Source: Parafrankia sp. EUN1f | GTDB taxonomy: Bacteria; Actinomycetota; Actinomycetes; Frankiales; Frankiaceae | DNA length: 64,000 nt | Reading direction: 5' to 3' | Assembly (NCBI RefSeq): GCF_000177675.1 | Contig: NZ_ADGX01000015.1 | Span: 1 to 64,000, forward strand | In this document: positions 23,042-48,028 of the stretch, piece after piece | How positions within the stretch are numbered: the first letter of the stretch is position 1 | How the letters are laid out: each line of letters opens with the position of its first letter | Position numbers and translations under genes: made by a program | Notes under the pieces: model-generated | Database searches by the model: none | What the model saw: the letters and a program-made list of their open reading frames with translations, nothing else | Told to the model about the DNA's origin: nothing

Positions 23042-23086
23042 CCATATTTACACTAGGTTGAAGTACCTGTACTGTCAACCCGGTCG
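23042..23086 (-). promoter_or_regulatory. Promoter-operator module C (copy of 47984-48028)
   Basis: Read on the minus strand it has TTGACA, 17 bp, then TAGTGT, a good vegetative promoter for the DUF35-thiolase-MFS unit. A 15-bp palindrome at 23048-23062 (TTACACTAGGTTGAA on +) covers the -10 box. The same 45 bp recur at 47984-48028 with two mismatches. The divergent acyl-CoA ligase starts 19 bp beyond the module and is probably controlled too. Confidence 0.75.
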
Positions 23087-23104
23087 TGTGGAGGGAGGAC
23101 GCCC

Positions 23105-24667
23105 ATGAAGGTCGCGCTCACGGTCAGAGACTTTCTGGACCGGGCTGAGACGGTGTATCCGGGTGCGCTGGCACTGGTCGACGAGCCGGGCCAGGCGGGT
23201 TCACTGGGCCGGCTGAGTTATGCCGAGCTGGCGGCACGCGCCCGCGGCGTGGCGGCCGGTCTGGCCCGGCTCGGGGTGCCGGTGGGTGGCCGGGTGGCGA
23301 TCGTGTCGCCCAACTCGGGCCGCTTCCTGACCGCCTTCTTCGGGGTCTCGGGCAGCGGGCGGGTACTGGTCCCGGTGAACTACCGGCTGGGTGCCGAGGA
23401 GGTGGCCTACGTCGTCGGCCATTCGGGCGCCGAGCTGCTTCTGGTCGACCCGGACCACGCCGACGCGCTGGCCGATGTGAAGGTCCCGCACCGGCTCGTG
23501 CTGGACGGGGTGTCCGACGCGGAGCTGTTCGCCCCGGCGGACCCCACCGACGCCGCCGCGTCCGCCGCGTGGGCGCAGTGGGAGCCCGACGAGGACGCCG
23601 TCTGCACGATCAACTACACGTCCGGCACCACGGCCCGGCCGAAGGGCGTCCGCCTCACCCACCGCACCTGCTGGCTGAACGCGGCCTCGTTCGGCTGGCA
23701 CACCACCGTCACCGAGCACGACGTCCTGCTGCACACCCTGCCGATGTTCCACGTCAACGGCTGGGGGATGCCCTACGCGGTGACCGGCATGGGCGGCACG
23801 CACGTCGTGATCCGGAAGATCGACGGGGAGGACATCCTCACCCGGGTCGAGCGGGACGGGGTGACGCTGATGTGCGGCGCCCCGGCGGTGGTCGCCTCGA
23901 TCCTCGATGCCGCGGCCGCGCGGGTCGCCGCCGGCCGCGCGGTCCCGGGCCGCGACCGGGTGCGGATCGTGGTGGCCGGGGCGCCGCCGCCCAGCGCGGT
24001 GGTCGCCCGGGTGGAGGAGCAGCTCGGGTGGGAGTTCATCCAGATCTACGGGCTGACCGAGGCGGCGCCGCTGCTCACCGTCAACCGGGCCCGGCGCGGC
24101 TGGGAGAAGCTGCCGGCCAGCGAGCGTGCCCGGCTGCTGGCGCAGGCCGGTGCCCCGGCGCTGGGGGTGCGGCTGCGTACCGATGCGTCCGGCGAGGTCC
24201 TCGCCCGTTCGAACCATGTCTTCGACGGCTACTGGGAGCAGCCTGAGCAGACCGCGGCGGCGATCCGGGACGGCTGGTTCCACACCGGCGACGGCGGCAC
24301 GTTCGACGGCCCGCTGCTCACGATCACCGATCGCAAGAAGGACGTCATCATCACCGGCGGCGAGAACGTCTCCTCGATCGAGGTCGAGGACTGCCTCTAC
24401 CAGCACCCGGACGTCACCGAGGCCGCGGTGATCGGCGTCCCGGACGAGAAGTGGGGGGAGACGGTCAAGGCCCTGGTCGTGCTGCGCCCCGGCGCCTCGG
24501 CCACCCCCGCCGAACTGATCGAGTTCTGTCGGGTCCGGATGGCGCACTACAAGTGCCCGACCAGCGTGGAGCTTCGGCCGGCCCTCGAACGCACCGCGAC
24601 CGGGAAGCTGCAGAAGTTCAAGCTGCGTGCCCCCTACTGGGCCGGCCACGACCGCGGGGTCAACTAG
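23105..24667 (+). CDS. Acyl-CoA synthetase (FadD-like)
   Basis: ANL-superfamily acid-CoA ligase (520 aa). Motifs: INYTSGTTARPKGVRLTHR (P-loop), GLTEAAPLL (A5), WFHTGDGG (A7), ITDRKKDVIITGGENVSSIEVE (A8) and RTATGKLQKFKLR (A10 catalytic Lys). It would charge the incoming acid as its CoA thioester at the start of the catabolic route. The ATG lies 19 bp after the promoter-operator module at 23042-23086. The next gene starts 1 bp after its stop, giving a tight operon with the double CoA-transferase. Confidence 0.9.
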   Translation: MKVALTVRDFLDRAETVYPGALALVDEPGQAGSLGRLSYAELAARARGVAAGLARLGVPVGGRVAIVSPNSGRFLTAFFGVSGSGRVLVPVNYRLGAEEVAYVVGHSGAELLLVDPDHADALADVKVPHRLVLDGVSDAELFAPADPTDAAASAAWAQWEPDEDAVCTINYTSGTTARPKGVRLTHRTCWLNAASFGWHTTVTEHDVLLHTLPMFHVNGWGMPYAVTGMGGTHVVIRKIDGEDILTRVERDGVTLMCGAPAVVASILDAAAARVAAGRAVPGRDRVRIVVAGAPPPSAVVARVEEQLGWEFIQIYGLTEAAPLLTVNRARRGWEKLPASERARLLAQAGAPALGVRLRTDASGEVLARSNHVFDGYWEQPEQTAAAIRDGWFHTGDGGTFDGPLLTITDRKKDVIITGGENVSSIEVEDCLYQHPDVTEAAVIGVPDEKWGETVKALVVLRPGASATPAELIEFCRVRMAHYKCPTSVELRPALERTATGKLQKFKLRAPYWAGHDRGVN

Positions 24668-24668
24668 C

Positions 24669-47040: not shown

Positions 47041-47058
47041 TCTGTTGAACGGGGTCGG

Positions 47059-47886
47059 TCAGACCGACCGCTGGGTCATCAGGAACTCGATGACCGGGCG
47101 GCCCGCCTCCCACGATCCGCCGATCGAGGACATCACGTGGCCGGAATCGACCAGGAGGCTGACGCCGCTGACACCGGCGGCCGCGGAACTGTTCAGAAAG
47201 GCCATCACGTCGGCGATCTCCTCCGCCCGCAACGGCGCCGTGCCGGTCGCCTTGCGGTACTGCTCGTCGAAACCGAGCCAGGTGTTGGCACGGGCGAGCG
47301 GGGTGTCCGTCGGCCCCGGGCAGACCGCGTTGATCCGAATTCCCTTCGCCAGCAGCGGATAGGATTCGCGAGCGACGTAGGCGTTGATCGCCTGCTTGCT
47401 GAACATGTAGGTGCAGGTGCCGTCATGACCGTCAACCCACGCATCGGCGGACGCGTAGTCGGGCGTCTCGAGGAAATCGACCAGCAGCGGCAGGTGGTTC
47501 TGCCAGCCGAGCCCCGCAACCGACGAGATCATGCAGATCGCCGAGCCGGGGACCAGTGTTCCGTCCCGGACCAGCCGCTCGGCCAGGTGGCGGTGGGCGA
47601 TGAAGTTGACCCGCATGACAGCCGGCCCGCCGGCGATGCCGGCCGCGGAGAACACCGCGTGCAGCGGTCCGGTGACCTGGTCGATCGCGGCGTTCAGTGC
47701 GTCGGGGTCGGTGAGGTCGACGGTGATCTGACGGGCGACCGGATAGTCGACCGGGGCGCGGTCCATGACCACGACCTCCGCGCCGAGCGCGGTGACCGCC
47801 CGGGCCGCCGCCGCGCCCATCCCGGTGGCTCCCCCGACTACGAGAACCCGCTTTCCGTCGTAGCGAAATGCTGCTGCCTCGGTCAT
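47059..47886 (-). CDS. Short-chain dehydrogenase/reductase
   Basis: SDR (275 aa). Motifs: VLVVGGATGMGAAAARAVTALGAEVVVMDRAP (Asp after strand 2, so NAD preferred), HAVFSAAGIAGGPAVMRVNF in the NNAG position, MISSVAGLGWQNHLPLLVDFLETPDYASADAWVDGHDGTCTYMFSKQAINAYV (Ser and Tyr/Lys separated by an unusually long insertion), NAVCPGPTDTPLARA, and SGVSLLVDSGHVMSS. The insertion before YMFSKQ resembles 3-alpha-hydroxysteroid dehydrogenase/carbonyl reductases. It is divergent from the enoyl-CoA hydratase across the promoter-operator at 47984-48028. Confidence 0.88.
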   Translation of the reverse strand: MTEAAAFRYDGKRVLVVGGATGMGAAAARAVTALGAEVVVMDRAPVDYPVARQITVDLTDPDALNAAIDQVTGPLHAVFSAAGIAGGPAVMRVNFIAHRHLAERLVRDGTLVPGSAICMISSVAGLGWQNHLPLLVDFLETPDYASADAWVDGHDGTCTYMFSKQAINAYVARESYPLLAKGIRINAVCPGPTDTPLARANTWLGFDEQYRKATGTAPLRAEEIADVMAFLNSSAAAGVSGVSLLVDSGHVMSSIGGSWEAGRPVIEFLMTQRSV

Positions 47887-47983
47887 GCTCCGCGCCCTCC
47901 GATTCTTCCTGCCCAGGTCTGCTCCGGGGTGGGTCGGCGTCTCGATGGCCCGTAGGAAATGGGGGCCACGCCGACCTTGCCCG

Positions 47984-48028
47984 CGACCGGGTTGACAGTA
48001 CATGTACTTGAACCTAGTGTAAATATGG
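47984..48028 (+). promoter_or_regulatory. Promoter-operator module B
   Basis: On the plus strand it has TTGACA, 17 bp, TAGTGT, driving the enoyl-CoA hydratase gene that starts 88 bp downstream. The 15-bp palindrome TTGAACCTAGTGTAA at 48008-48022 overlaps the -10 box, and a second small palindrome AGTACATGTACT lies in the spacer. 43 of 45 bases equal the module at 23042-23086. Position over the -10 box suggests repression. Confidence 0.75.

Follow-up and report, generated by a model that had tools for sequence, protein, structure and literature searches.

The first 64,000 nucleotides of contig NZ_ADGX01000015.1 of Parafrankia sp. EUN1f, hereafter the window, contain an uncharacterised catabolic gene island of 30 kb (Table 1). 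It combines LIV-type uptake genes with a CoA ligase, three CoA-transferase genes, a pair of acyl-CoA dehydrogenases (ACADa and ACADb) and a DUF35/SCP2-thiolase pair, together with an enoyl-CoA hydratase (ECH), three SDRs, a P450 and a Rieske-type ferredoxin. The 15-bp palindrome TTNNACYNRGTNNAA recurs between the gene units, and a gene for a TetR-family regulator (31909-32553) lies among them. An earlier note on this DNA had claimed that the palindromes define a regulon. No publication on the island, or on the related protein DitZ, was found in a literature search judged by titles and abstract openings.

Table 1. Genes, predicted operators and putative promoter elements of the island, in window coordinates
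Feature	Position	Strand	Context	Basis or remark
DUF35 (ChsH2-like) and SCP2-type thiolase	21212..22889	-		domain matches; best solved match of the thiolase is SCP2-thiolase type-1
Operator 1 (predicted)	23048..23062		between DUF35-thiolase (-) and CoA ligase (+)	exact match
Operator 1 promoter	-35 TTGACA 23073-23078; -10 TAGTGT 23050-23055	-	-10 under the operator	17-bp spacer
Opposed promoter-like pair at operator 1	TTTACA 23047-23052; TACTGT 23070-23075	+	toward the ligase	17 bp between elements
Acyl-CoA ligase and 853-aa double family III CoA-transferase	23105..27188	+		domain matches
CoA-transferase 2, luciferase-like monooxygenase, amidohydrolase-fold protein 1	28036..31620	-		last protein matches PtmU3 and DitZ
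Operator 2 (predicted)	31655..31669		upstream of the amidohydrolase-fold protein 1/luciferase-like/CoA-transferase 2 unit (-)	exact match
TetR-family regulator, 214 aa	31909..32553	-	proposed FadR-type repressor of the island	TetR_N 1e-11
Putative -10 TATACT of the TetR gene	32561..32566	-	7 nt before GTG	read from sequence
Acyl-CoA dehydrogenase pair and SDR1	32705..36056	-		nearest NCBIfam models of the dehydrogenases include PimC/PimD, below cut-off
Operator 3 (predicted)	36262..36276		upstream of SDR1-ACADb-ACADa (-), TetR gene last on the same strand	exact match
Operator 3 promoter	TTGCGT 36279-36284; TAAGCT 36255-36260	-	operator fills the spacer	18-bp spacer
Operator 4 (predicted)	36421..36435		upstream of livF (+)	exact match
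livF	36463..37170	+		start read from sequence
Rieske-type ferredoxin, SDR2, amidohydrolase-fold protein 2 (DitZ-like), fused LivHM-LivG, LivK	37361..44027	-		
Operator 5 (predicted)	44297..44311		upstream of livK-livHMG-amidohydrolase-fold protein 2-SDR2-Rieske-type ferredoxin (-)	exact match
Operator 6 (predicted)	44559..44573		upstream of CoA-transferase 3 and DAPDH-like gene (+)	exact match
Operator 6 promoter	TTGCAT 44551-44556; TATGGT 44575-44580		operator fills the spacer	18-bp spacer
CoA-transferase 3 and DAPDH-like dehydrogenase	44651..46998	+		
SDR3	47059..47886	-		nearest NCBIfam model coniferyl-alcohol dehydrogenase, below cut-off; start read from sequence
Operator 7 (predicted)	48008..48022		between SDR3 (-) and enoyl-CoA hydratase-SucFer-ALDH-P450 (+)	exact match
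Operator 7 promoter	-35 TTGACA 47992-47997; -10 TAGTGT 48015-48020		-10 under the operator	17-bp spacer
Enoyl-CoA hydratase, Suc_Fer-like, aldehyde dehydrogenase (ALDH), P450	48117..52869	+		order unchanged in four Pseudofrankia islands

Occurrence of the sites

The window holds seven matches to TTNNACYNRGTNNAA without a mismatch, each where the earlier note had placed it, and no eighth; 100 dinucleotide shuffles of the window gave a mean of 0.03 matches and a maximum of 1. All seven are intergenic, provided that DUF35 starts at 22889 and SDR3 at 47886, two starts that were read from the sequence, as the program-made open reading frames (ORFs) overrun those two sites. Because the motif had been chosen by eye, matches in the window were also counted for 20,480 palindromes built on the same scheme. 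In the subset of 6,400 whose arms each hold no more than one G/C letter, TTNNACYNRGTNNAA ranked first and the runner-up had 3 matches; GC-richer patterns reached up to 45, as expected for a sequence of 71% GC.

Across the whole genome (9.35 Mb in 396 contigs) there are nine exact matches, against two for a reversed-pattern control. Seven of the nine fall within one 25-kb stretch of the island, for which a binomial estimate gives about 3e-17. One of the two matches elsewhere is within a long ORF with codon-like base use and the other is ambiguous. Matches with one mismatch number 156 in the genome and 119 for the control; as this excess is small, they are mostly noise and were left uncounted. 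Two of them are in the window (27233 and 52066, the latter within the P450 gene), both coding by reading of the sequence. The one at 27233 was considered as an eighth site and rejected (matrix score 13.3, at the TTG start of an ORF without family match). Wide regulation in the Parafrankia genome was likewise rejected, since the relaxed core TNNACTNAGTNNA matched 5 times, including 3 times in the island, whereas its reversed control matched 17 times.

Conservation in Frankiaceae

A close ortholog of the TetR regulator (at least 68% identity) is encoded in 11 of 35 Frankiaceae genomes. Ten of these have several sites beside island genes, the eleventh (G020) has one site beside a broken island, and each ortholog's contig carries at least one site. 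The TetR-bearing genomes together hold 106 exact sites, against 29 for the control, and the other 24 genomes hold 53, against 48 for the reversed control (Mann-Whitney p 2.7e-6, with the kinship of the genomes ignored). Assigned by hand, 72 of the 106 are beside island genes and 34 elsewhere; nine island sites in G018 include repeated contig ends, and the true count there may be as low as five. For G022-G026, where totals only were taken, the numbers are 2 to 6 sites each with controls of 1 to 6. At the class level, a search for the regulator at E 1e-40, with at most seven candidates scored per genome, gave matches in 13 of 393 genomes, every one a member of Frankiaceae.

The sites also follow individual genes. 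An exact site precedes the ortholog of the gene behind operator 2 in all 10 stretches from other genomes that contain the start of that gene, and operator 4 recurs exactly in G019 and with one mismatch in G021. In four Pseudofrankia islands, each on a single contig (G027, G028, G030 and G033), gene order is rearranged relative to the window; each has seven exact sites and a one-mismatch site before CoA-transferase 3. The sites are upstream of DAPDH, amidohydrolase-fold protein 2, livK, ACADb/SDR3, amidohydrolase-fold protein 1 and ligase/ECH, the last being a pair 26 bp apart. Further one-mismatch matches in these islands (e.g., G030 13038, 16767 and 34696; G027 35094 and 40157) were rejected and left uncounted as they lie within gene matches.

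The TetR gene at 31909-32553, whose protein the earlier note had named for binding assays, is the better candidate here. A second TetR gene (53400-54179) was rejected as the regulator because it has no match within the 52-58 kb around each of the four Pseudofrankia islands.

The regulator and its operator type

The nearest solved relative of the regulator by phmmer is FadR, a TetR-family repressor of fatty-acid genes in Thermus thermophilus (4.2e-10). An AlphaFold2 model (mean pLDDT, the predicted local distance difference test, 88) retrieved T. thermophilus FadR entries at Foldseek ranks 1-6, and VIA-align placed FadR first (Z 17.4 and 17.2; next protein 15.1), the best alignment being to 3anp_C, a lauroyl-CoA complex (Z 17.4, 193 residues, root-mean-square deviation 4.2). 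Thermus FadR was crystallised with lauroyl-CoA (entry titles of PDB 3anp/3ang); long-chain acyl-CoA is its ligand and frees it from DNA, and the fold of the regulator resembles that in the acyl-CoA complexes. Its operator, as selected in vitro, is TTRNACYNRGTNYAA; the best sequence is bound with a dissociation constant (KD) of 0.17 nM, which climbs to >300 nM when positions 2 and 6 are altered (PMC5597230).

The island sites are nearly the same odd-centred 15-bp sequence. Three of the seven (31655, 36262 and 48008) match TTRNACYNRGTNYAA fully, including R3 and Y13, where none is expected in shuffles, and the other four depart from it only at position 3 or 13. Because positions 2 and 6 were fixed by the search pattern for nearly all sites, their invariance is no test, and the likeness rests on the full matches and on position 3, which was left free: it is A or G in 10 of 14 arms in the window and in 40 of 56 arms among 28 sites of G017, G021, G028 and G030. 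Motif and nearest relative were found independently, and both lead to one known repressor type, that of FadR. The earlier note had stressed the odd centre as a difference from the KstR site. That difference stands: all seven sites share the odd-centred core ACYNRGT and do not fit the even-centred form of the KstR operator TnnAACnnGTTnnA (PMC1995591), and the KstR family model gives the regulator 29.9 bits against a cut-off of 280. The motif itself, however, is already known from Thermus FadR (PMC5597230); it is the regulon and the island that are new.

Thermus FadR controls acyl-CoA genes, and its operators lie within or overlap core promoter elements (PMC5597230), a placement that some of the island sites may share. 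Unlike the Parafrankia sites, which are confined to one island, those of FadR are at 14 promoter regions around the Thermus genome (PMC5597230), and the two proteins belong to different phyla. KstR and KstR2 of mycobacteria are also TetR proteins that bind short palindromes, and they repress operons for the breakdown of lipids or cholesterol. The sites of KstR2 are near its own gene, as the island sites are near the TetR gene, but both TnnAACnnGTTnnA of KstR and AnCAAGnnCTTGnT of KstR2 are even-centred (PMC1995591, PMC3068626). In contrast to ScbR-type autoregulator-binding factors, discussed below, the island regulator stands among genes with catabolic matches, with no butenolide genes among them.

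Promoter elements

At operators 1, 3, 6 and 7 the site covers a putative -10 element or fills the spacer between putative -35 and -10 elements. These elements were read by eye from aligned flanks and their coordinates rechecked. TetR regulators are generally autoregulatory (PMC3920632). Autoregulation through TTNNACYNRGTNNAA was rejected here, as a matrix scan found no site at the promoter of the TetR gene in the window or in Pseudofrankia. The TATACT seven bases before its GTG suggests a leaderless, unrepressed message, and in Parafrankia read-through transcription from operator 3 is possible.

A second element, about CTGTTARAAAGNAGRTC, is found just upstream of the operator at livF (36395-36411, + strand) and at livK (44320-44336, - strand) and is retained in the islands of G017, G019 and G021. 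It is perhaps the site of a second regulator.

Alternative explanations

By computation, the sites are present, are confined to the island and are conserved both together with the TetR gene and ahead of operons, and protein and operator each resemble their counterparts in the FadR system of Thermus. From this we infer that the seven palindromes are very probably operators of the island TetR repressor, which would bind them, be relieved by an acyl-CoA and control the island genes jointly. The sites could instead be real operators of a different, unlinked regulator, with the adjacent TetR controlling something else. The genomes do encode 7 to 178 first-look TetR-like candidates each, the binding of this TetR to the operators is a prediction, and its own promoter has no site. 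An unlinked regulator is nevertheless unlikely, given that the sites accompany the regulator in all 11 genomes, down to the broken island and to every ortholog's contig, and that the nearest solved relative binds nearly the same 15-bp sequence.

Duplication of promoter cassettes could have spread the sites even if they regulate nothing; this would account for the 45-bp stretch, with 3 differences, common to operators 1 and 7, and for the extra element shared by the livF and livK upstream regions. Outside those pairs, however, the flanks diverge while the 15-bp core persists, and the sites have survived in the rearranged island of another genus, which makes this explanation highly improbable. 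That the matches arose by chance, or that the motif was fitted by eye, can practically be dismissed. The motif was indeed chosen after the sequence had been viewed, and of 20 mononucleotide shuffles one gave a matrix score (22.4) within the range of the real sites (20.0-26.6). The 6,400-pattern scan and the genome-wide count speak against chance, and the recurrence of the sites in 10 further genomes (just one site in one of these) makes it extremely unlikely.

Several observations weigh against control by the island TetR. Operators 2, 4 and 5 have no clear promoter elements, and the lack of a site at the regulator's own promoter, noted above, belongs here too. In the Pseudofrankia islands, DUF35-thiolase has no site. 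In the fold alignments the regulator shares only 20-23% of its residues with Thermus FadR, and the best NCBIfam model for the regulator is ScbR, at 75.4 bits or half of the cut-off of 150. G008, one of the 24 other genomes, has seven sites (control 4). A metagenome-assembled genome (MAG) from Centralia encodes a TetR ortholog of 50% identity whose presumed recognition helix does not differ from that of the island TetR, yet has no site within 10 kb of it, even with one mismatch allowed, and no excess over the control in the genome as a whole (62 vs 56); a weak match is at L046:4785 (score 10.8). The earlier note's claim of one regulator common to uptake, activation and oxidation genes is supported by computation, because the sites are confined to the island, co-occur with the TetR ortholog and follow promoters through rearrangement, though not completely, as the TetR promoter and the Pseudofrankia DUF35-thiolase lack the site.

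Proposed regulation and substrate

Under control by the island TetR, each 15-bp site would be occupied by a dimer, which would cover the -10 element or lie between -35 and -10 (where these are readable) and would silence the genes for uptake, CoA activation, beta-oxidation and oxygenases jointly. Imported substrate would be converted to its CoA thioester, most likely the ligand of the helical C-terminal domain, and acyl-CoA binding would release TetR from the DNA and turn the whole island on. On this basis a regulator can be predicted and a regulon defined for the island, and a simple assay could lead to its substrate. The comparison with FadR suggests one operator code common to TetR repressors of two phyla at such low protein identity, and the prediction of TetR operators from sequence could be tested on this pair.

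The two amidohydrolase-fold proteins of the island (38536-39819 and 30325-31620) bear on the substrate. Protein 2 (38536-39819) matches PF04909, and its matches to DitZ (441 bits, 4e-131) and PtmU3 (119 bits, 2e-33) point to dinuclear oxygenases. DitZ, the molecule name in PDB 8uyr, we take to be linked to diterpenoids and perhaps to be a dinuclear oxygenase itself. By these matches protein 2 resembles the amidohydrolase-related dinuclear oxygenases AibH2, PtmU3 and SfbO, and both island proteins are probably oxygenases of the PtmU3/AibH2 kind. Relatives pair with a small Rieske protein, and AibH1H2 adjoins AibG (PMC10811679); amidohydrolase-fold protein 2 likewise shares a gene run with the Rieske-type ferredoxin. 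The ferredoxin (37361-37732) scores at most 50.7 bits with dioxygenase ferredoxin-subunit models, below the curated cut-off of 150, and stays beside protein 2 in the four Pseudofrankia islands.

PtmU3 is a beta-hydroxylase of diterpenoid biosynthesis that accepts CoA-ligated substrates (PMC7782822). This activity, with a Rieske pairing as seen here, suggests a polycyclic or alicyclic acid as the island substrate. A polycyclic terpenoid-type acid would be plausible; an alicyclic or diterpenoid-type carboxylic acid is the leading candidate, to which we would give somewhat less than an even chance. A wider picture is offered tentatively. A FadR-type repressor, with the same 15-bp operator in Deinococcota and Actinomycetota, may have been recruited by nodule and soil Frankiaceae for a closed regulon serving a plant-derived polycyclic (diterpenoid-like) acid. 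Its inducer would be the CoA thioester, the rings would be opened by the amidohydrolase-fold dinuclear oxygenases, and promoter-operator cassettes would have travelled along with the operons during rearrangement of the island.

Further observations

The unit downstream of the site at 48008 continues on the same strand beyond the hydratase, via the Suc_Fer-like and aldehyde dehydrogenase genes to the P450 gene, ending at 52869. The double-domain family III CoA-transferase occupies 24627-27188. A single open frame of 967 aa at 39869-42772 joins two permease stretches to a LivG-like ATPase and is read as a fused transporter. LivK had no match in the PDB at 1e-6.

The decayed-looking island of G020 retains the TetR gene and one operator; its contig 256 (L097) has partial ACAD and amidohydrolase matches at 7622-12706, with a P450 gene abutting a truncated ACADb. 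Outside the island, the perfect palindrome TTATACCAAGTATAA is found near a P450 gene in two genomes of the window's genus (L112:8374 and L113:8637) and is maybe the site of a related TetR. G017 has an extra exact site (L102:12806) before a second CoA-transferase 3 paralog (69%), and the regulon may therefore be larger in that species.

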